NCBI GenBank assembly: GCA_020161505.1
Contig: JAIUNY010000023.1
Span: 1 to 51,342 of the forward strand
Direction: 5' to 3'
DNA from: Armatimonadota bacterium
GTDB lineage: Bacteria > Armatimonadota > Fimbriimonadia > Fimbriimonadales > Fimbriimonadaceae
DNA: 51,342 nt
The notes under the pieces are model-generated. The model ran no database searches. It was given only the letters and a program-made list of their open reading frames with translations, and had not been told where the DNA came from. Each line of letters starts with the position of its first letter. Position 1 is the stretch's first letter. Shown here one piece after another: positions 5,300 through 15,728 of this stretch. Made by a program: the position numbers and the translations under genes.

Positions 5300-5379
5300 C
5301 GTTTGCCTCCGGATTCAGTATCTCCGGGAAATGCTGTGACGGTGATGGGACGATTTGGGACACGCTGCGCCCTAGAGAA

Positions 5380-5949
5380 TTAGTCCACGAGCTCGCGCCC
5401 GTAGCCATCGTGGCGAAGTCCGCCGACGAGAATATAGATCGCGTCAAGCCAGGCCCAGATCAGGCCAACGAAGCACATGGTGGTGATGAGCTGAAGCATC
5501 CCGTGGGCGGCGTAGCCCAGATAGAAGCGTCCGAATCCGGGGATGAAGTTGAGGAGCCCGGCAACGGCGCGCTTTTTGTCGCTCTTCAGGGTGTTCAGGG
5601 TGCCGTAGGGCATCGGGTATCCACCGTAGGGTGCGGCTGCGGGGGTGAACTCCGGGTTCGGGACGAAGCTGGTGGAGATGCTTGGAGTGGGTGACTGAAC
5701 CGTCGGGGATGGGCGGGTTCCCGGCATTGGCGTTGGAGGAGGTTGCTGGGGAAGGGCACCGAACTTGTCTCTGAGCTCGAAGATGCCTCCTGCCGGCTGC
5801 CAATCTGCCATCCCGGGGCGCCAGAGATAGGTTTCTCGGTCAATGACGCCATCGGAAACGAGTTCGGAAATCTGCTGGAACGTGAGCGGGCCCAATTGGC
5901 CGTAATGGCCCACGTAATACCATTCCGGTTGCTCGTCGACAATGCTCAT
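5380..5949 (-). CDS. GYF_2 + TM2 domain membrane protein
   Basis: 189 residues from the ATG at 5949 (an in-frame GTG at 5961 is also possible). The N-terminal 50 residues, WYYVGHYGQLGPLTFQQI with GVIDRETYLWRPGMADW, are a GYF_2 (DUF4339) domain, a small peptide-binding fold. A Pro-rich linker (PQQPPPTPMPG and on) follows. The C-terminal third (KKRAVAGLLNFIPGFGRFYL, then GLIWAWLDAIYILVGG) is a TM2 domain with two membrane segments. Such proteins are common in diderms, but their roles are mostly unknown. It is divergent from gltX. Confidence 0.8.
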   Translation of the reverse strand: MSIVDEQPEWYYVGHYGQLGPLTFQQISELVSDGVIDRETYLWRPGMADWQPAGGIFELRDKFGALPQQPPPTPMPGTRPSPTVQSPTPSISTSFVPNPEFTPAAAPYGGYPMPYGTLNTLKSDKKRAVAGLLNFIPGFGRFYLGYAAHGMLQLITTMCFVGLIWAWLDAIYILVGGLRHDGYGRELVD

Positions 5950-5963
5950 AAGCCCAGCCACTT

Positions 5964-5979
5964 CGCAGAATGTTCTGCG
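5964..5979. promoter_or_regulatory. Perfect 16-bp dyad, candidate operator
   Basis: CGCAGAA (5964-5970) TG TTCTGCG (5973-5979) is a perfect inverted repeat with a 2-base centre, 15 bases from the ATG of the GYF/TM2 gene and about 120 bases before gltX. The symmetry and spacing are typical of a homodimeric repressor site. The regulator is not identified. Confidence 0.4.
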
Positions 5980-6067
5980 TGCTTCATTCTAGGACATGAA
6001 TGGCCCCGGAGAGGTTGCGCGGGCCTAACGACTCTTTGCGAGAACGCGATCCGCAGACCGTCCGGGA

Positions 6068-6084
6068 GGCAGGATCGCCCTGCC
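6068..6084 (+). other. Small hairpin in the gltX leader
   Basis: GGCAGG (6068-6073) and CCTGCC (6079-6084) form a tight 6-bp stem with a 5-base loop ending 16 bases before the gltX ATG. No U-run follows, so it is not an obvious terminator. It may be a translational control element or chance; no T-box motif was seen. Confidence 0.3.
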
Positions 6085-6100
6085 AGGTAGCCTCTGACGC

Positions 6101-7648
6101 ATGTCAGTACGCGTTCGGTTCGCCCCGTCGCCCACCGGATTGCTCCATGTGGGAGCCCTTCGCACCGTGGTCTTCAACGATCTCTTTGCGAAGCGCCACC
6201 AGGGCACCCTCATTCTGCGGATTGAGGACACGGACCGCACGCGCTACAACCCGGAAAGCGAGGCGGAGTTTATCGAGACCCTGAAATGGGTCGGGATCGA
6301 ATTCCATGAGGGCCCTCACGTTGGCGGCGACTTTGGGCCGTACCGGCAGAGCGAGAGAAAAGAGGCGGGAATCTACACACCGTTTGTGGAGGAATTGCTC
6401 GCAAAGGGCGCGGCGTATGAGGCCTTTGAGACTCCCGAGGAGCTGGAGCAGATGCGTGAGTTCCAGCGCATTAACAAGATGCCGACGGGTTACTTTGGTG
6501 GCGACTGGCGCGATGCCACGCCAGAGCAAGTCGCGGCGGCGAAGGCCGAGGGCAAGCCATGCGTGATCCGGCTGAAGATTCCACGCAACACCGCGATTGT
6601 TGGCGAGGACGTCGTGCGGGGCAAGCTGGAGTGGGACAGCAACACCGTTGATGATCCGGTGATTATCAAGGCCGACGGGATGCCGACCTATCACTTTGCT
6701 GCGATGGTGGATGACCATCTGATGCAGATCACCCACGTCTTCCGAGGCGAGGAATGGATCAGTAGCTATCCGAAGCATATTGCGCTGTTTGATGCGTTTG
6801 GGTGGGACAAGCCGGTGTTCGTCCACTGCCCGGTCATTGTCGGGAACGACGGCAAGAAACTGAGCAAGCGCCACGGCGCCACTCGCGTGCTGGACTACAA
6901 GTACGATGGCTTCCTGCCGGATGCGCTCAAGAACTTTGTTGCCTTGATCGGCTGGAACCCGGGTGATGATCGTGAGATCATGGCTCCGGACGAGCTGGCT
7001 TCCGCGTTCCACTTGGAAGGAATTCAGGCTAGCCCGGGCAAGTTCGACATGGAAAAGCTCAAGTGGATGAACGGCGTGGGCATTCGTTCTCTTGACCGCG
7101 ATTCGCTCATTTCGACGGTTTCCGAACTGGTTAAGGATCCCGAGATCTTGTCGTACTATGCGGGCAAGGAACCCGAAGATCCGGCTCCGAAGATTTCGGC
7201 TGACGAGTACCATCGGGCGATCAGCACCTTGGCATCTGCGCTGGATAACGACTCTGCGTTCGCCGAGCAGTGCGTGGTTCTCGAGCAAGAACGGGTGCAA
7301 ACCCTGGCTGATTTTGGCCCCGCGACGGAGTTCTTCTTGGTTGAGGAGCTGAGCTACGATGAGAAAGCGGTCGAAAAGTGGTTCGGCGAGCCGCACGTCC
7401 GCAAGTTGCTTGATGATTTGGCGGGCTTTGTTTCCGGCAAGAGCGAAGTCTCGGTGGAGGAATGCGAGGGGTTCGTGAAAGGCTGGGCGGCAGAGAACGG
7501 GTTTGACAAAATCGGCCCGGTGGTGCACCCCACTCGCGTGGCTCTGAGTGGAAAGACCTCCGGGCCGGGGCTGTTTGACCTGATGTCCTGTCTGGGGCCG
7601 GATCGGATCGCCAAGCGAATCGCCCGGGCCAAGGAACTTCTTCGATGA
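6101..7648 (+). CDS. gltX: Glutamyl-tRNA synthetase
   Basis: 515 residues, class I synthetase charging tRNA-Glu. VRFAPSPTGLLHVGALRT carries the HIGH-type signature (H16-V-G-A) and KKLSKRHG (about 252-259) the KMSKS-type loop. RIEDTDRTR and the EEWISSYPKH region, typical of GltX, are present. The zinc-binding cysteines of E. coli GltX are absent (AYEAFETPEEL), as in many bacteria. GluRS may be discriminating or non-discriminating; this cannot be decided here. The C-terminal anticodon-binding region is shorter and more divergent than the catalytic core. hisD follows with a 4-base ATGA overlap. Confidence 0.96.
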   Translation: MSVRVRFAPSPTGLLHVGALRTVVFNDLFAKRHQGTLILRIEDTDRTRYNPESEAEFIETLKWVGIEFHEGPHVGGDFGPYRQSERKEAGIYTPFVEELLAKGAAYEAFETPEELEQMREFQRINKMPTGYFGGDWRDATPEQVAAAKAEGKPCVIRLKIPRNTAIVGEDVVRGKLEWDSNTVDDPVIIKADGMPTYHFAAMVDDHLMQITHVFRGEEWISSYPKHIALFDAFGWDKPVFVHCPVIVGNDGKKLSKRHGATRVLDYKYDGFLPDALKNFVALIGWNPGDDREIMAPDELASAFHLEGIQASPGKFDMEKLKWMNGVGIRSLDRDSLISTVSELVKDPEILSYYAGKEPEDPAPKISADEYHRAISTLASALDNDSAFAEQCVVLEQERVQTLADFGPATEFFLVEELSYDEKAVEKWFGEPHVRKLLDDLAGFVSGKSEVSVEECEGFVKGWAAENGFDKIGPVVHPTRVALSGKTSGPGLFDLMSCLGPDRIAKRIARAKELLR

Positions 7649-8967
7649 GCCTCTGCCCGATTTTGGGTTCCCGCGACCCTGGGCTGAGCCGCTGGCTGAA
7701 TCGACGCCCGAGCTTCGACCCGAAGCTTGTGAGTTCGGTCGCCGAGATCATTGATGAGGTGAGTCGTGAGGGAGCCGAAGCAGTTTTGCGCCACTCCCGT
7801 CGCTATGATTCTCCCGCTCTCGAATCGCTTTTTGTGACGCCGGAGGAACTAGAATCTGCCGTGGTGACCACGGATGAGTTGGAGGCCTTGCGTCTTGCCA
7901 TCAGCCGGGTGCAGGAGTTCCACGAGACTCAGAAGAGTGTGATCACCAAGGACTGGCAAGAGCTGCCCATCGGCTACGGCTGGCGCACGGATGCTACGGA
8001 ATCCGACGATCCTGGCTTTGAAGGCCAGCGACTTCTCCCGCTCGCGAGCGCGGGTATTTATGTCCCCGGTGGCCGCGCGAACTATCCGAGCAGTGTGATC
8101 ATGAACGTGATTCCGGCTCAGGTTGCAGGTGTTCAGAGGATCGTGATTGCCACTCCCGTCGGGCCGGACGGCACTCTTGCGCCTGCCGTGCTCGTCGCGG
8201 CCCGATTGCTCGGAATCCAAACGATTCTGAAGGCAGGAGGTGCAAGCGCGATTGCCGCTCTCGCCCTGGGGATCCCTGAGCTTCCTCGGGTGGACAAGAT
8301 TGTTGGCCCGGGTAACGCCTATGTCAACGAGGCCAAGCGCCAACTGTGGGGAAGTGTTGGCTTGGATGGCTATGCTGGCCCGAGCGAAGTCGCGGTCTAT
8401 GTGGACGATGAAAACTACACGGACTACGCCGCCGCCGACCTGCTCACCCAAATTGAGCACGCGCCCGACAACGTGGGAATGCTCATCGCGCCGAATCAGG
8501 AGGTCATCGATGAGACGATGGCGGAAATCGAGCACCTCCTCGCGGGTCAGAAGCACGAGGAGACGATGCGTCGCGCCCTGAAAGAGCAGTGCGTGGCTGT
8601 GATTTCTGAGTCTGCCCTCGATGCGATTCGGGTCATCAATGACTTCGCGCCCGAGCACCTCTCCTTGATCTGCGAATCAGCAGCGGCGATGGCCCAAGGC
8701 GTGGTCAACTGCGGATGTGTTCTCATCGGCGCGGAAACTCCCCAGAGCTGTGGAGACTTCATCAGCGGCCCCTCGCATACTCTGCCGACCGCTGGCGCGG
8801 CTCGGTTTGGGTCGCCGGTCAACGTGCAAGATTTCTTCAAATTCCAGTCGGTTTCCTCACTAACAATGACCGATCTGGAGATCCTGAATGCTGCCGTGCA
8901 GATGTTTGGCGAAATGGAAGGCTTCCCGATGCATGCCCTTGGAACCCAAATCCGACTCGACGAGTAG
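7645..8967 (+). CDS. hisD: Histidinol dehydrogenase
   Basis: 440 residues. HisD oxidises L-histidinol to L-histidine in two NAD-dependent steps, the last reactions of histidine synthesis. Diagnostic stretches are IYVPGGRANYPSS, KIVGPGNAYVNEAKRQLWG, GPSEVAV, the zinc-site region QIEHAPDN, DFAPEHLSL with the catalytic Glu-His pair, and CGDFISGPSHTLPT. Length is normal for the family. It is the only histidine gene in the window, and it is placed between gltX and rtcA, starting within the gltX stop (ATGA). Confidence 0.96.
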   Translation: MSLCPILGSRDPGLSRWLNRRPSFDPKLVSSVAEIIDEVSREGAEAVLRHSRRYDSPALESLFVTPEELESAVVTTDELEALRLAISRVQEFHETQKSVITKDWQELPIGYGWRTDATESDDPGFEGQRLLPLASAGIYVPGGRANYPSSVIMNVIPAQVAGVQRIVIATPVGPDGTLAPAVLVAARLLGIQTILKAGGASAIAALALGIPELPRVDKIVGPGNAYVNEAKRQLWGSVGLDGYAGPSEVAVYVDDENYTDYAAADLLTQIEHAPDNVGMLIAPNQEVIDETMAEIEHLLAGQKHEETMRRALKEQCVAVISESALDAIRVINDFAPEHLSLICESAAAMAQGVVNCGCVLIGAETPQSCGDFISGPSHTLPTAGAARFGSPVNVQDFFKFQSVSSLTMTDLEILNAAVQMFGEMEGFPMHALGTQIRLDE

Positions 8968-8975
8968 GTTGTCTC

Positions 8976-9989
8976 ATGATTGAGATTAATGGGGGATTTG
9001 GCGAAGGGGGTGGACAGATCGTGCGCACCGCGTGCACGTTTTCGGCGGTGACCGGTCAGGCTTTCCGGCTCTTCAACTTGAGGGCCAATCGGAGCAAGCC
9101 TGGTTTGCGGGCTCAGCATGTGACTTCGGTGGAGTCCGCCGCGATGCTCGTTGATGCGGAAACCAGAGGGGTTGCCGAACACTCCGTGCAATTCTCCTTT
9201 GCGCCGAGAAATCGAGCGGAGGCCGGGGACTATGGGTTCGGAATCCGAACGGCAGGCTCGGCGGTGCTCGTCCTCCAAACTCTTTATCCGATCCTCGCTC
9301 TGACGGATCGGCTGAGCCGTCTGGAGATCAAAGGGGGCACCAGCGTGCCGTTTGCGCCACCAGGGATCTACCTGGAGCAGGTGTTTGCGCCGATGGCTGC
9401 TCGCATGGGTTGGGGCGGATCTATCGCGGAGCCTGAGGTCGGATTTGCCCCGATTGGAGGAGGACTGATCTGGTCGCTCGTGGGTTCGGCGGATCCTCTT
9501 GAGGTTCACCTCGATGGGTCGCAACCATCGGAAACCGAATGGATATGGCGATCATCGGGCATCCCGGAGAGCGTTGCCGAAAAAGCCTCGCGCCTCATTG
9601 CTGACCAATTTGGGCAGACTCTCAAGGTCGAAAACGTGAAAGCAGAATCTTCGGGCGGGGTACTCGCTTGCATTGCGCGCGCGACCGAATCAGCGGCGCC
9701 CGCCGGATTCACCGCGCTTGCCGAGCGAGGACGTCCGATGGAGAAACTCATTGCGAGCATCCAGCGGCAAGTGGAGACGTGGCGCAGCGCGGGTGGTCTC
9801 GATCCGCACCTGGCCGACCAAATCGTGCCTTTGCTGGCCCTGACCCCGGGGAACCACTCGTTTGTGGCCAGCGAGGTGACCGAGCACCTGGAAACCGTGC
9901 TCGAACTCATCCCGATTTTCTCTCTCGGAACGTATGAGCTGAATCGTGAAACCAGGGAAGTCGGGATTCACTCCACGCGAATGTCCTAA
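8976..9989 (+). CDS. rtcA: RNA 3'-terminal phosphate cyclase
   Basis: 337 residues. RtcA converts a 3'-phosphate on RNA to a 2',3'-cyclic phosphate through an adenylated histidine. Visible motifs: INGGFGEGGGQIVRTA at the N-terminus, ANRSKPGLRAQHVTSV (substrate-binding arginine region), EIKGGTSVPFAPP, and DPHLADQIVPLLAL, where H278 is the presumed nucleophile. The full-length, motif-complete sequence argues for an active enzyme rather than an RCL1-type homologue. It starts nine bases after hisD. The usual partner rtcB (RNA ligase) and regulator rtcR are not in the window. Confidence 0.92.
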   Translation: MIEINGGFGEGGGQIVRTACTFSAVTGQAFRLFNLRANRSKPGLRAQHVTSVESAAMLVDAETRGVAEHSVQFSFAPRNRAEAGDYGFGIRTAGSAVLVLQTLYPILALTDRLSRLEIKGGTSVPFAPPGIYLEQVFAPMAARMGWGGSIAEPEVGFAPIGGGLIWSLVGSADPLEVHLDGSQPSETEWIWRSSGIPESVAEKASRLIADQFGQTLKVENVKAESSGGVLACIARATESAAPAGFTALAERGRPMEKLIASIQRQVETWRSAGGLDPHLADQIVPLLALTPGNHSFVASEVTEHLETVLELIPIFSLGTYELNRETREVGIHSTRMS

Positions 9990-10079
9990 GTCGCACACAA
10001 CCTGGGACAGAAAGGCCCCGCAGGAGCCGCCGCCAGGGATACACTGGTTTCACCGCGCGGCCCCGCGCAGAGTGCAAAG

Positions 10080-11411
10080 ATGCCCTACGTCCCTCATACC
10101 GAAGCCGATGTCCGAGAGATGCTCGCCACGATTGGCGTGGATTCCATCGATGACCTCTTCGTCGAAATCCCGGACGACCTGAAGCTGAAGGCTCCGCTCA
10201 ACATCCCGTCGAGCATGGATGAAGCGCAGTTGACCAAGCACCTCCAGGCTCTGAGTGAGAAGAATGTCGATCTGAGCCGGGTGACGTGCTTCCTGGGTGC
10301 AGGAATCTACGACCGATTCATCCCCGCCACCGTCGGCGCGGTGATCAGCCGGGGCGAGTACCTGACCGCTTACACTCCGTACCAGCCGGAAGTCAGTCAG
10401 GGCTATCTGCAGACGATTTATGAATTCCAGAGCATGATCGCCGAGCTCTACGATATGGATCTCGCCAACGCGAGCATGTACGACGGAGCCACCTCGCTTG
10501 CCGAAGCCGCGATCATGGCGACGGGGATCAAGCATCGGAACAAGGTTGCGGTCAGCGCGACGGTTCACCCTCACTATCGACAGGTTCTGGAAACCTATTG
10601 CTGGGCGATGGGCGTGGAGGTCGATACCCTGGGCCACGTCGATGGTTTGACCAGTGGCTACGACGGTCTTGATGAGAGCTATGCGTGTGTGCTGGTGCAG
10701 ACGCCGAGCTTCTACGGCACCATCGAAGACCTCGCTGCACTGCGAAGCGCTTGCGACCGCATCGGGGCCATGATGATTGTGGCTTCGGATCCGACGAGCT
10801 GTGGGATCATGCCTCCTCCGGGCCAGTTTGGTGCGGATGTCGTGGTGGGCGAGGGCCAGCCGCTGGGAATCCCGATGGGCTTTGGCGGCCCGCTGCTTGG
10901 TCTGTTTGCTTGCAAGAAAGAGTTTGTCCGCAACATTCCCGGCCGAATCGTGGGACGCACCACCGACGCGGCAGGGAAGAGCGGCTTCACGATGACCCTG
11001 CGCACCCGTGAGCAGGATATCCGCCGCGAAAAGGCCACCTCGAATATCTGCACGAACGAAGCCCTGATGGCTCTGGCGAGCACGGTCTACATGAGCGCTC
11101 TGGGCAAGAATGGCATCCGCCAAGTCGCGGAAACGACGGTGCGCAATACGCAGTACGCGATTGAGGTTCTGACCGCCGCTGGTGGCAAGCTGAAGTTCTC
11201 GGCCAAGGTGTTTGGTGAGTTTGTGCTGGAACTGCCGCGCTCTGCGGCTTCGATTCAGGCCGAGCTTCTGGATCACGGTGTTCTGGCTGGATTGCCGCTG
11301 GGTGAGTACGAAGCAGGCATGGAAAACTGCCTCCTCGTCGCCGTGACGGAGAAGCGCACGAAGGCCGAAATCGACGACTTCGCCGCGAAGTTGAAGCAAG
11401 TTCTGGGCTAA
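10080..11411 (+). CDS. gcvPA: Glycine dehydrogenase (decarboxylating) subunit 1
   Basis: 443 residues: the N-terminal half of glycine cleavage P-protein in its split form. Characteristic stretches are MPYVPHTEADVREMLATIG, FLGAGIYDRFIPATVG, FLGAG/YTPYQPEVSQGYLQTIYEFQ, YDGATSLAEA and the late RTREQDIRREKATSNICT. The PLP lysine is supplied by subunit 2. gcvPB normally follows directly; here the two are 1.5 kb apart because of an intervening insert (11412-12919). The 90 bases upstream contain no recognisable glycine riboswitch. Confidence 0.96.
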   Translation: MPYVPHTEADVREMLATIGVDSIDDLFVEIPDDLKLKAPLNIPSSMDEAQLTKHLQALSEKNVDLSRVTCFLGAGIYDRFIPATVGAVISRGEYLTAYTPYQPEVSQGYLQTIYEFQSMIAELYDMDLANASMYDGATSLAEAAIMATGIKHRNKVAVSATVHPHYRQVLETYCWAMGVEVDTLGHVDGLTSGYDGLDESYACVLVQTPSFYGTIEDLAALRSACDRIGAMMIVASDPTSCGIMPPPGQFGADVVVGEGQPLGIPMGFGGPLLGLFACKKEFVRNIPGRIVGRTTDAAGKSGFTMTLRTREQDIRREKATSNICTNEALMALASTVYMSALGKNGIRQVAETTVRNTQYAIEVLTAAGGKLKFSAKVFGEFVLELPRSAASIQAELLDHGVLAGLPLGEYEAGMENCLLVAVTEKRTKAEIDDFAAKLKQVLG

Positions 11412-11424
11412 GGCTCAGGGTCGA

Positions 11425-12306
11425 TCAGGAAGAGGTCATTCGCTGGGCTTTGGGTGATTCTCTGTGCCTTTTGGTCGGAGCCTTGTCGTATTCGGCCTGG
11501 GGTTCGTATTTCCAAAAGCTGAATCTCGGACTCCTGGGCCACGTGGAGAGACAGTTTTTGCTCTCAAGTGAAATCGACTGCTTGTGCTTTTTCCCAAGCT
11601 CATATATTTGAGCGGCGATCTCGGCACGCGCCTGTTCGGTCTTCCTCTCCCAAGCATCATCTCGGAATTCCTCAAAAAGCAAGCCGTTTTCGCAGTCCTT
11701 CTTCATCCTGAGGGCCCGTAAGATGTCGTCGCACTTAGAATGCGAGTAGTTTACTGCGCCCGCAAAAAGGTCGGCAACACCGAGAATCGGGAGTTCTTTG
11801 GAGCATCGCTGCGCATGCTTGAGTATTCTGAGATACCCTCGGTCGGGGCGTATCAATGGCTTTGACTTGTTGTAGATTGGGAGCTCACGAGTGCTGTTCA
11901 GAAAGTCTACAATGTCTGGGTGCCGCAAGTCCTGCTTCTGATCCGGAAACCACATCCAATCTCGCACCCCGTGCCAATCGGCGTTCCTCCGCAGGCCGTG
12001 GAACAGCATCCGGTGGAAATTCTCCCTATCGTCACGGTTTGCAATCTTGTGCCTGGAATCCTGGATGTCCCACGTCAAAACCATAACCCTCAGATTGGTT
12101 CGCTCAAAAAACTCGGTCAGGATCTGCGAAGAAACGCTAAACCTCTGGAGCGTCTCGACTTGGCTCCACTTAAACTCCGTTGCCTGCGTCGTTCCTAACA
12201 GCTGCTTGCAAATTCTGTTGAAGGCGACCATCTGCTCATTTGACCCGGAAATAAACGCTATCGACTGAAATCTGTTGCCGTGTATTCCGGACTCGTCTGA
12301 GACCAC
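11425..12306 (-). CDS. DUF3800-like protein, possibly 5'-frameshifted
   Basis: 293 residues from a GTG. The start VVSDESGIHG matches the DESG strand that opens the DUF3800 RNase H-like fold; a conserved later Asp falls in LPILGVADLFAGAVNYSHS, the counterpart of 'lqlADliAga'. The rest is poorly conserved and ends in a basic tail. DUF3800 genes are frequent in mobile and defence islands, but their function is unknown. The start is doubtful: a strong AAAGGAG with a TTG six bases later (12335) reads MGTTSN and stops, and one extra base would join it to the LANIVVSDESG frame, suggesting a 1-base deletion. The gene is antiparallel to gcvPA and gcvPB and visibly more AT-rich. Confidence 0.65.
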   Translation of the reverse strand: MVSDESGIHGNRFQSIAFISGSNEQMVAFNRICKQLLGTTQATEFKWSQVETLQRFSVSSQILTEFFERTNLRVMVLTWDIQDSRHKIANRDDRENFHRMLFHGLRRNADWHGVRDWMWFPDQKQDLRHPDIVDFLNSTRELPIYNKSKPLIRPDRGYLRILKHAQRCSKELPILGVADLFAGAVNYSHSKCDDILRALRMKKDCENGLLFEEFRDDAWERKTEQARAEIAAQIYELGKKHKQSISLESKNCLSTWPRSPRFSFWKYEPQAEYDKAPTKRHRESPKAQRMTSS

Positions 12307-12332
12307 AATGTTCGCTAGTTGCTCGTTGTTCC

Positions 12333-12359
12333 CAAGTTACGCTCCTTTCTAGGATAGTA
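12333..12359 (-). promoter_or_regulatory. -10 box, strong ribosome site and TTG of the DUF3800 gene
   Basis: On the minus strand TACTAT (12359-12354) is followed by AAAGGAG (12348-12342) and, six bases on, TTG (12335-12333). This ordering marks the real 5' end of the DUF3800 gene, although the TTG frame hits TAG after six codons. No convincing -35 was seen. Confidence 0.45.
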
Positions 12360-12587
12360 TGTCAGCATTCGGAGGCCAATAGCGAGTGGGGGTGTGGAAA
12401 ACTCCACGCCGTTACTCTAGAGTTGCTTTTCTCAACAATGCTCCTGCCGGGCGTACGAGGCCATGCCTGCAAAAGATTCCCTTATGTTAATCAATATACT
12501 TGTCAATGAACAACTCCAAGCAATGTTGCGTCTGTCGAAGAGTCTATTGAAAGTTTCCAATTCCATCTAGTCTAGGATACGAACCAC

Positions 12588-12782
12588 ATGACCGAACTCC
12601 CTGTGAAATGTCCGAAGTGCGGTGCCCAGATGACGCTGATCTCGCGGCATGGGAGAGGCGACAAGCGCTGCCTTTCACAAGCAGGCTGTCTGTTTGGCAC
12701 CGGAGTTGGGTCGCTGTTGATTCCGCTCCTCCTGCTGGCCAAGTCCACCCGGATTGTCTGTCCCAGGTGTGAAATCCCGTAG
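12588..12782 (+). CDS. Small zinc-ribbon protein
   Basis: 64 residues. CPKCGAQM near the N-terminus and CPRCEIP at the C-terminus make a CxxC...CxxC zinc ribbon; between them is a Gly/Leu-rich hydrophobic segment (GTGVGSLLIPLLLLAK) that could be a membrane hairpin or buried strand. The upstream 250 bases are AT-rich and look unlike the surrounding core genes. It lies in the insert between gcvPA and gcvPB. A weak GTTCGG/CCGAAC hairpin at 12785-12799 follows. Real gene likely because of the paired cysteine motifs; function unknown. Confidence 0.55.
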   Translation: MTELPVKCPKCGAQMTLISRHGRGDKRCLSQAGCLFGTGVGSLLIPLLLLAKSTRIVCPRCEIP

Positions 12783-12919
12783 AGGTTCGGCATCCGAACG
12801 GAAAGCTGAGAGGTCGTTTTTGCCTTAACTCCACACCTTGCCCCAAACCTATCCAACCCCTTCCACAGAGATGGGACTAAACGGAAAACTGGCCCCTTCA
12901 CCGCAGGTACGATTCACTC

Positions 12920-14410
12920 GTGCAGCGACAGACAAAGTCAGTCCCCGTCCCGCAGTTGATTTTCGAGCGATCGCGCCCTGGTCGCATCGGCTGCAGTCTC
13001 CCCAAGGCCGACACGCCGGAAGTCGATCTCAGCAAGGCGATTGGGCAAACGCGCGATGAAGTGAAGTGGCCCGAGGTCAGTGAGCTGGAGGTCATGCGCC
13101 ATTTTGTGAACCTCAGCCACCTAAACTACGGCATCGAAACGGGCTTCTATCCTCTCGGAAGCTGCACGATGAAGTACAACCCGCGCATCAACGAGGTCAC
13201 CGCCTCGATGAGCGGATTCCGCAACCTCCACCCGCTGCAGCCGGATCACACCGCAGAAGGGGCATTGGAAGTTCTCCTGAGCGTCTACGAGATTCTCGAA
13301 GAAGTCACGGGATTCGACGACATCACCATGCAGCCGGTTGCCGGTGCTCATGGCGAGATGACCTGTCTCATGCTCATCAAGGCGTACCACGAATCGCGCG
13401 GCGAAGGCGCGATGCGAACGTTGGTTCTCGTCCCGGATAGCGCGCATGGCACGAACCCCGCCAGCGCGGCTCGATGCGGATACGATGTCAAGACCATCCC
13501 GACGGACGCCGACGGGAACACCGATCTCGAAGCTCTCAAGGCCGCTCTGAACGAGAGCGTTGCCGCCTTCATGGTCACCAACCCGAGCACCCTGGGGCTG
13601 TTCGAGCCAAACATCCAAGAAGTTTGCAAGCTCGTTCATGCGGTCGGCGGGCAAGTTTTCTGCGATGGCGCGAACATGAATGCCATGGTCGGAACCACCC
13701 GACCCGGCGATCATGGCTTCGACTGCATGCACCTAAACCTCCACAAGACGTTCAGCACGCCTCACGGCGGTGGCGGCCCCGGATGCGGAGCGATTGGCCT
13801 GAAGCGACACCTTGAGCCGTTCCTGCCAGCGCCCGCTCTCAAGCGCGTGGATGGCAAGCCGGTTCTGGATCGTCATCGCCCTCTGAGCATTGGCCGGGTG
13901 AGCAGCTTCTATGGCCAGTTCCTGATGGCGGTGCGGGCTCTGACCTATCTGCTGGCGTACGGCAAGGAGCAGATGTCCCACATCAGCCGGTACAGCGTGC
14001 TCAACGCGAACTACGTGCAAGCCAGGCTCCGTGAGGTGCTCCCGCAGGCGCACAACCGGCCGTGCATGCACGAGTGCGTTCTTACGGCTCAGCAGTACAA
14101 GAAGAATGGCGTCCGCGCACTGGATATCAGTAAGCGACTCATCGACTACGGATTCCACCCACCGACAAACTACTTCCCGCTCATCGTGCCGGAATGCTTG
14201 ATGATCGAGCCCACGGAGACGGAAGCCAAGGAAACGCTGGATGCGTTCTGCGATGCCCTCATCGCGATCTGCCACGAAGCCAACACGAACCCGGACTTGC
14301 TCCACGAGGCTCCGACCACCCAAGTGGTCGGCCGACTGGACGAAGCCAAGGCCGTGAAATTGCTGGATGTCAAGTGGCAACACGCACCGGAAACCCCAGC
14401 CACGGTTTAG
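12920..14410 (+). CDS. gcvPB: Glycine dehydrogenase (decarboxylating) subunit 2
   Basis: 496 residues, the PLP-binding half of the split P-protein, which decarboxylates glycine and passes the aminomethyl group to lipoyl-GcvH. LIFERSRPGRIGCSLP, GFYPLGSCTMKYNPR, QPVAGAHGEMTCLM and LNLHKTFSTPHGGGGPG (PLP lysine K276) are diagnostic. The start used is GTG at 12920; only weak Shine-Dalgarno pairing is visible. It is separated from gcvPA by a foreign-looking insert, so it may have acquired its own promoter. A dimeric-barrel gene starts ten bases after its stop. Confidence 0.95.
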   Translation: MQRQTKSVPVPQLIFERSRPGRIGCSLPKADTPEVDLSKAIGQTRDEVKWPEVSELEVMRHFVNLSHLNYGIETGFYPLGSCTMKYNPRINEVTASMSGFRNLHPLQPDHTAEGALEVLLSVYEILEEVTGFDDITMQPVAGAHGEMTCLMLIKAYHESRGEGAMRTLVLVPDSAHGTNPASAARCGYDVKTIPTDADGNTDLEALKAALNESVAAFMVTNPSTLGLFEPNIQEVCKLVHAVGGQVFCDGANMNAMVGTTRPGDHGFDCMHLNLHKTFSTPHGGGGPGCGAIGLKRHLEPFLPAPALKRVDGKPVLDRHRPLSIGRVSSFYGQFLMAVRALTYLLAYGKEQMSHISRYSVLNANYVQARLREVLPQAHNRPCMHECVLTAQQYKKNGVRALDISKRLIDYGFHPPTNYFPLIVPECLMIEPTETEAKETLDAFCDALIAICHEANTNPDLLHEAPTTQVVGRLDEAKAVKLLDVKWQHAPETPATV

Positions 14411-14419
14411 AATAGAACC

Positions 14420-15058
14420 ATGTCCGAAATCCTCGCGATCAGCCGGTTCTCTGTACCGGAGCACCGGCTGGCAGGGTACGAGGAAATGTCGGCGGCCTTT
14501 TCGGTCCGCGTGAACACTCACCCGGGTTCGCGAGGAACTCACATTTGGGTCGGCGTCGATGATGCCGCCCATTGGATGCGCCTGACTCTCTATGCGAACG
14601 AGCAAGCGGAGCGCCATGTGCATGGTCGAGTCAGCACCTCCGATTGGATGGTGGAGAAGATTCGCGAGGCTGGAATTGTCCCAGACCTGACGCGTTGTGT
14701 GGTGGTCTGGAAGCACGGGGTGTCCCCCGAGAGGCTTCCGATCGAGCCTTTTGTCTCCTACAGCGTCCGGGCCTTTGCGACAGGGATGCAGACCGACTGG
14801 ATCGAGAAGCTGCAGTCGAACTTTGAGGAGATTTCAAACATTGATGGCTATCGTGGTTCGATCATCGCCACGACGGCCGAGACCCCGGAAGAAGTCTCCG
14901 CACTTGTCTTTTGGGAGTCGGAAGAGGCTTTCCGACGATCACTTCCCGACGGGCCCGACTACGAGATTGACCTTTACCGAGACTCCAATCTGCTGACTCC
15001 GGCACCCGAGATTGAATTGTCTCCAGAGCCCTGCGGGCCCGATTCTGACCATGATTGA
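14420..15058 (+). CDS. Two-repeat dimeric alpha/beta-barrel (ABM-like) protein
   Basis: 212 residues. The two halves look like repeats of a ferredoxin-like dimeric alpha/beta-barrel unit: ILAISRFSVPEHRLAGYEEM in the first, PFVSYSVRAFATGMQTDWIE with SNIDGYRGSIIATTAE and ALVFWESEEAF in the second; the latter pattern is typical of ABM (antibiotic biosynthesis monooxygenase-like) domains. No cofactor motif is evident, and the substrate is unknown. It is co-directional with gcvPB (10-bp gap) and overlaps the lipoate ligase-family gene by 8 bp, so it belongs to that transcript. Confidence 0.55.
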   Translation: MSEILAISRFSVPEHRLAGYEEMSAAFSVRVNTHPGSRGTHIWVGVDDAAHWMRLTLYANEQAERHVHGRVSTSDWMVEKIREAGIVPDLTRCVVVWKHGVSPERLPIEPFVSYSVRAFATGMQTDWIEKLQSNFEEISNIDGYRGSIIATTAETPEEVSALVFWESEEAFRRSLPDGPDYEIDLYRDSNLLTPAPEIELSPEPCGPDSDHD

Positions 15059-15728
15059 TCGCATCCAGGTTGTTGACGATGGCGTTCACGACGGGATCGT
15101 GAATATGCGCCGGGACACCTACTTGCTTGATCTCGACGGAGTCAGAGCGAGGGTGTATCAGTGGGATCGCGACTGGGTGAGTTTGGGGATGTTCCAAACG
15201 CCAGAGACTGCCCTGGTTGACGGGTGTCATACCCCTTGGGTGATGCGACCCACCGGAGGCAAAGCGGTTCTCCACGGCCACGATTTGACCCTCGGGATGA
15301 GTGCTCCTTTGGCGCTCATTGGCACGGACTCTCGCGGGGTGAAGACTGCCTATCGGTGGCTGGCTGAGCCGATCATTTCCGCGCTCAACGAGGTCGGAAT
15401 CCCCGCGACTCTTGCCGAGCGCACGCCGTTTGTCCGAGGGGCCGGGAAGGTTGCCGACTGTTTTGCCCACGTGGCAGCGAACGACATCGTGCATCCGGGA
15501 ACGGGGCAAAAGGTGTGCGGTTGCGCGCTGCGCCTGACTCACGATGCAGTTCTTCTCCAGGCGAGTATTCCGCTTGGCAGACCGTTGGCTGATCCCGCCG
15601 AAGTCTTCGACATCCCCGCGCTGGTTTCGATGGATCGCAGCGTGACCCGGATTGATTTCGCGGCAGCGCTTCGAGAGAGTCTGGCCGCCTGGGTCGCACA
15701 GCAGGGCGACCGAACGATTCTTGCTTAG
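15051..15728 (+). CDS. Lipoate-protein ligase / octanoyltransferase family protein
   Basis: 225 residues of the BPL/LplA/LipB fold. MRPTGGKAVLHGHDLT (about 65-80) corresponds to the lipoyl-binding RR.sGGgavfH motif, and GQKVCGCALR (about 152-161) contains the conserved lysine K154. C137 in DCFAHVAANDIV lies where LipM-type octanoyltransferases have their catalytic cysteine, so octanoyl transfer from ACP is as likely as lipoate ligation. It sits two genes after gcvPB, suggesting that GcvH lipoylation is a main job, though gcvH is not in the window. The start overlaps the preceding gene by 8 bp. Confidence 0.8.
   Translation: MIDRIQVVDDGVHDGIVNMRRDTYLLDLDGVRARVYQWDRDWVSLGMFQTPETALVDGCHTPWVMRPTGGKAVLHGHDLTLGMSAPLALIGTDSRGVKTAYRWLAEPIISALNEVGIPATLAERTPFVRGAGKVADCFAHVAANDIVHPGTGQKVCGCALRLTHDAVLLQASIPLGRPLADPAEVFDIPALVSMDRSVTRIDFAAALRESLAAWVAQQGDRTILA

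Follow-up and report, generated by a model that had tools for sequence, protein, structure and literature searches.

According to the available text of Zheng et al. (2011; PMC3160421), bacterial leaderless genes of the TA-led kind have a TANNNT box about 12 nt upstream of the start codon (counted from the first T of the box) and no Shine-Dalgarno (SD) sequence, while a -10 motif is also described for leaderless genes of Deinococcus-Thermus (PMC12340547, again as far as the available text goes). The string "Armatimonad" is absent from the main text of the latter paper, the supplements of which hold a scan of bacterial phyla, and a literature search, judged by titles, found no study of leaderless genes in this phylum. 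The present analysis differs from both in that one gene is compared between alternative arrangements, in many relatives and in another phylum, and in using sequence only. The second system of relevance is the DUF3800 family (PF12686); a member with an RNase H fold and an association with Cas12a2 is reported in the accessible part of PMC10910872.

The DNA analysed here (the window) is one whole contig of 51,342 nucleotides (C10) from the genome of an Armatimonadota bacterium of the family Fimbriimonadaceae (G000; 3.14 Mb in 38 contigs). In it the genes for the two subunits of the glycine-cleavage P-protein, gcvPA and gcvPB, are held apart by some 1.5 kb of other DNA (Table 1). Since gcvPA and gcvPB are adjacent in all seven of the other genomes of the genus, with an uninterrupted junction and 19–41 nt between the matched stretches, these 1508 bp are an insertion. 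Its left end lies between 11412 and 11424, at most 13 nt behind the gcvPA stop codon, and its right end at approximately 12914 to 12931, at the start of gcvPB; the latter is inferred from the N-termini of the sister gcvPB proteins, which are unlike that of the window up to about codon 4, so that the first few codons are not common to both. The GC content of the insert (52.1 %) compares with 0.599 for gcvPA and 0.606 for gcvPB, and just 5 of 775 overlapping 1508-bp windows, drawn from the window (insert included) and 20 further stretches of the same genome, have a GC content as low or lower. The original prediction, which was of an AT-richer insert of about this size with one gene antisense to the gcv operon, and which called for its ends and the sister genomes to be checked, is thus borne out on all these points.

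Table 1 Features in and around the interrupted gcvPA–gcvPB junction (positions are those of the window).
Feature	Position	Strand	Remarks
gcvPA, glycine dehydrogenase subunit 1	10080-11411	+	NF001696, E=8.1e-183
Insert	11412-12919		1508 bp; GC 0.521; missing from 7/7 other genomes of the genus
DUF3800-type RNase H-fold protein (fold predicted)	11425-12306	-	293 aa from GTG; antisense, tail to tail with gcvPA
AT-rich spacer, upstream of both insert ORFs	12307-12587		GC 0.459; without Rfam match
zf-LITAF-like zinc-ribbon ORF	12588-12782	+	64 aa; PF10601, 26.2 bits (Pfam cut-off 23.8, passed)
GGTACGAT, leaderless-type -10 box TACGAT (12908-12913) with preceding GG	12906-12913	+	
gcvPB	12920-14410	+	NF003346, E=2.4e-205; GTG start
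First gene downstream of gcvPB	14420-15058	+	
Second gene downstream of gcvPB	15012-15728	+	lipoate-ligase-like (by eye)

The explanation that seems to us quite probable is that in an ancestor gcvPA and gcvPB were adjacent and presumably co-transcribed, as in the sister species, and that a piece of 1.5 kb, bringing an orphan DUF3800 gene of a restriction-associated branch together with the zinc-ribbon ORF, landed between them, which would have cost gcvPB both its original start and its position beside gcvPA. On this explanation gcvPB would now most likely depend on a leaderless promoter of its own, GGTACGAT-6 nt-GTG, a bare -10 box that would set the start of transcription at or next to the start codon; the putative promoter would thus be a working one, and read-through from gcvPA would presumably no longer matter for gcvPB. 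The DUF3800 protein would be a leftover or a solitary defence nuclease, and the insert as such an ordinary case of a defence-type gene being acquired.

As to where the inserted DNA came from, no further copy of it exists within its own genome; the part from 12300 to 12930 gives only a 21-bp match against the genomes of the genus, and a search of 84 other genomes of the family, with at most four candidates scored per genome, gave three matches of 47–48 bp (in G106 and G028), all of them inside DUF3800 relatives at other places. The ORFs of the insert include no recombinase gene (transposase or integrase), and there are no terminal or flanking repeats at its ends, so that the marks of a transposon or integrative element are missing; an imperfect 15-nt direct repeat (87 %) does link 11321-11335, inside gcvPA, with 12883-12897, but it is of a kind that the tool itself describes as often due to chance. 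No fragments of restriction-modification (R-M) genes were found in the insert, and an Rfam search of 9900-14600 at E<=1 found no RNA family.

The larger of the two inserted genes, the stop codon of which lies 13 nt behind that of gcvPA, scores 14.2 bits against the PF12686 profile (E=0.073), below the gathering cut-off of 21, and it is not among the 18 of 22 alignment members that match DUF3800 at E<=0.01. An AlphaFold2 model of the protein (pLDDT 85.2) aligns in VIA-align with human RNase H2 (Z 10.5, rmsd 4.7, 165 residues aligned) and with the RNase HII structure 1eke (Z 10.1, rmsd 4.1, 168 residues aligned), Foldseek giving a best E of 1.8e-3, and on this basis the protein is predicted to have an RNase H-like fold; a sequence search found no solved structure for it. 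D4, E5, E44, D122 and D179 are identical in all 22 rows of the alignment, that is, in the window protein and its 21 relatives. What it shares with DUF3800 is therefore an N-terminal DES motif, the predicted fold and the defence neighbours of its relatives (see below), whereas it differs in a sequence too diverged for the Pfam cut-off and in standing alone, antisense, inside a metabolic operon. It also matches the PADLOC profile PDC-M04A (7.8e-7, residues 24-192), although the other components of that candidate system were not found at the window locus. The profile of a phage protein family to which no function is assigned (phrog_3732) matches at 4.4e-7, implying phage relatives, though no phage record or viral contig with a relative was found; relatives at 25–28 % identity do occur in six plasmid records (five from Methanothermobacter and one from Thermomicrobium), four of which are annotated as DUF3800. 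Among 60 related genomes clear relatives are present in G028, G044 and G035, none of them at a gcv locus, and the gene in the window is the only one of its family in its own genome. A further candidate in G039 was weak (E 4.1e-4, with one internal stop codon) and is probably a chance match.

The 5' end of this gene presents some difficulty. The GTG start puts the conserved Asp at residue 4, as against about residue 8 or later in the relatives (with starts picked by the analyst), and in 12306-12350 on the minus strand the position at which the relatives start lacks a usual start codon; AAAGGAG (SD-like) and a TTG are present further upstream, in another frame. For these reasons the gene start may be damaged, or there may be an assembly error at that place.

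Neighbouring genes of DUF3800 relatives were searched at 12 of 23 related loci, picked by eye for an R-M look; some of the other 11 end early at contig ends. Type I R-M or BREX genes adjoin the relative at 11 of the 23: HsdR at eight of them (L041, L042, L044, L045, L046, L049, L050 and L054), HsdS at L039, HsdM at L040, and BREX PglZ and BrxL together at L055. At L058 the neighbour is an SNF2 helicase, and by eye L032 has a C5-methyltransferase-like gene and L034 a Mod-like one. The relative nearest to the window gene in DNA (L039:4631-10027, on the contig of L137) lies between the HsdS gene and a gene for a protein of 1004 aa that weakly matches a reverse transcriptase (RVT_1, 1e-8). Beside the window gene itself there is no R-M gene, none being recognisable by eye among the window ORFs of at least 190 aa, and the genome has a single HSDR_N match, which is on contig C19. 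There (G000:C19:126500-146000, L132, at about 5300–15100) it belongs to a type I R-M operon with extra genes, the remaining subunits of which were assigned by eye, adjoined by multiubiquitin-like and E2-like ORFs (also by eye), possibly a defence locus.

These neighbourhoods bear on one alternative account of origin, which is compatible with the explanation given above: that the insert is the decayed remnant of a larger mobile defence island, of which one nuclease gene and a small ORF are left. The R-M and BREX genes beside so many relatives, the match to a phage protein family and the apparently disrupted start of the DUF3800 ORF would all fit such an origin. However, neither a recombinase gene nor end repeats nor fragments of R-M genes were found in the insert, and the five residues kept in all 21 aligned relatives mean that, its start aside, the protein does not look decayed; this origin is accordingly possible, but we would not favour it. 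Where the original prediction named a DUF3800 and a zinc-ribbon gene, the zinc ribbon passes its profile cut-off, while the DUF3800 ORF stays below its own and is supported by the matches of its relatives and by the predicted fold; and where it saw DUF3800 genes as frequent passengers on mobile and defence islands, defence holds for this branch, but mobility finds no backing in recombinase genes or end repeats, despite the phage-family match.

Across the 60 related genomes nothing matches the zinc-ribbon ORF at E<=0.001. Over its first residues the ORF matches phrog_6417 (5.3e-5), for which the annotation is phage translational regulator.

Turning to the start of gcvPB, 137 nt behind the end of the zinc-ribbon ORF, the sequence immediately upstream reads GGTACGAT, then 6 nt, then GTG, which agrees with the spacing of about 6–7 nt between -10 box and start codon in leaderless genes; the GTG is preceded by no SD-like match longer than AGGT, so that by the measure used for such genes an SD sequence is lacking. 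A sigma-70 scan, which requires a -35 box, found no promoter. Whether boxes so placed are a general property of the genome was judged from the window and the 20 other stretches, together about 418 kb or 13 % of the genome, containing 326 long ORFs chosen by a greedy rule. At 6 and 7 nt before early ATG or GTG codons TANNNT occurs 24 and 20 times among 1090, as against 2–8 times at other distances and 4 and 6 times among 2987 late ATG or GTG codons; with a preceding G (GTANNNT) the counts at 6–7 nt are 28 of 1090 early and none of 2987 late start codons (Fisher 7e-17). A box at 6–7 nt is found in 45 of the 326 ORFs, preceded by G in 62 %, and, going by how often the box occurs at other distances, perhaps one in four of these 45 is due to chance. 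The pattern is that described for leaderless genes, so far as the available text of PMC3160421 and PMC12340547 allows comparison, and in the stretches from eight relatives the count likewise peaks at 6 nt (15 of 348 early and 2 of 831 late). With respect to neighbouring genes the signal hardly differs within the genome (12 of 136 ORFs with an opposite-strand neighbour, 6 of 93 with a same-strand gap below 30 nt), and for this reason the rule set out below is one for gcvPB rather than for genes in general.

In the same sample, with its crude ORF set, SD pentamers form no clear peak ahead of early start codons, a hint that SD sequences are little used in this genome.

A further comparison is available across the order. 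Out of 61 genomes, 55 have a readable region upstream of gcvPB and 52 could be classed by arrangement: G036 and G052 gave no gcvPB match, G020, G029, G039 and G057 were omitted because gcvPB is split or cut (by match coordinates the pair looks adjacent in G039 and some 1.6 kb apart in G029), and G054, G059 and G060 were left unclassed with gcvPA missing or partial, two of these three carrying GGTANNNT. The two genes are adjacent in 25 of the 52 and separated in 27, so that the original view of the subunits as normally adjacent holds for the other members of the genus but only partly for the order. Within 60 nt around the gcvPB start, GGTANNNT is present in 25 of the 27 separated and in none of the 25 adjacent genomes (Fisher 7.4e-13, with rows that are not independent), shuffled sequences giving it in a mean of 1.45 of 27 and a maximum of 6; the looser TANN[AC]T occurs in 25 of the 27 separated genomes and also in 6 of the 25 adjacent ones. 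An SD-like match of at least 5 nt to AAGGAGGTGA shows the reverse distribution, being present upstream in 18 of the 25 adjacent and 2 of the 27 separated genomes, though within the genus only three of the seven other genomes have such a match before gcvPB. From the box to the first in-frame start the distance is 5–14 nt in 25 of 26 boxed genomes, most commonly 9, and 21 in G051; as it is often 9–14 nt in the relatives, some of their transcripts would carry a very short leader instead of being leaderless. There are two exceptions to the motif rule, namely G034, which has TATACT without GG, and G011, which has a gap of 190 nt with a strong SD sequence kept and is one of the two separated genomes with an SD-like match; in the latter the junction is merely widened, in keeping with the idea that a gene which stays on the transcript keeps its SD. 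The G011 junction (L086, at about 1549–1695) contains three copies of a REP-like palindrome of some 25 bp.

The spacing of the box, its enrichment in the genome and the match with separated gcvPB genes in relatives together point to the split gcvPB having, most likely, a leaderless promoter of its own. The main competing account is that transcription reading through from gcvPA, or starting at a promoter of the zinc-ribbon gene, still provides most of the expression of gcvPB, GGTACGAT standing before the GTG by chance. A scan of 11350-13000 gave no terminator-like site on the gcv strand, and the zinc-ribbon ORF does lie on the same strand as gcvPB; against this, chance would have to account for a spacing of 6 nt that is the peak spacing of the genome, for a motif that follows separation so closely in the relatives, and for the want of any SD-like match longer than AGGT, and we regard this account as unlikely. 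The original statement that the insert must have changed the expression of gcvPB is supported as far as sequence can speak, in that a switch to a leaderless-type promoter is indicated.

A quick gcvPB tree with 55 rows requires no fewer than 11 changes of arrangement, and 15 of its 52 inner branches are left open. Well-supported branches provide five independent pairs, in a mean of 4.8 of which the motif follows the arrangement (p=0.0625); with just five pairs available p cannot reach 0.05. The cargo also differs from case to case at this same junction: in G014 there is a single antisense gene of 526 aa (sugar-dehydrogenase plus cytochrome-like, by eye) with unchanged GC, in G024 AT-rich genes on the gcv strand, and in G025 16.8 kb of DNA, and all three have GGTANNNT before gcvPB. 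The insertion in the window can thus be seen as one case of a repeated event. More tentatively, the gcvPA–gcvPB junction might in this order be a recurrent point of operon fission, at which a bare leaderless -10 box by the start codon would be the standard way for the released gene to regain expression. What these genomes offer is a replicated natural experiment, in which one gene moves between adjacent and separated states, with at least 11 changes on its own tree and those five pairs on well-supported branches, and the initiation signal goes along with it; the proposal made in 2011, that leaderless initiation evolves jointly with the position of genes in operons (as given in the available text of that paper), becomes testable at one locus. 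If this tentative reading is correct, it would be leaderless initiation that lets operons break up at little cost in these bacteria, since a single short sequence provides the starts of both transcription and translation.

The same tree raises the question of direction. The window's genome branches before six nearby rows of the genus, and next out is G011 with its 190-nt gap, an order that would fit an ancestral separation, with gcvPA and gcvPB re-joined in the sister species; given this branching order, the direction of change rests on the parsimony of re-joining. Re-joining in the same order and on the same strand, with gaps of only 8–41 nt, would have to recur, and with 25 of 52 genomes adjacent and the cargo so varied among the separated ones this course of events is very improbable. 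That the junction is an artefact of assembly or binning, for which the 38 contigs and the deviant GC of the insert might be cited, is hardly credible in view of a completeness of 99.94 and a contamination of 0.05, of insert ends that coincide with a stop and a start codon, and of downstream synteny that is held in four of eight relatives' stretches.

In those four (G001, G002, G004 and G022) the two genes that come after gcvPB in the window also come after it, either immediately or further along. They were not found in the stretches of G003, G005, G006 and G007, nor did any of the eight yield the window genes that precede gcvPA. The first of the two downstream genes has a box of its own (TAGAAT, window 14408-14422), placed 6 nt before its ATG and overlapping the stop codon of gcvPB.
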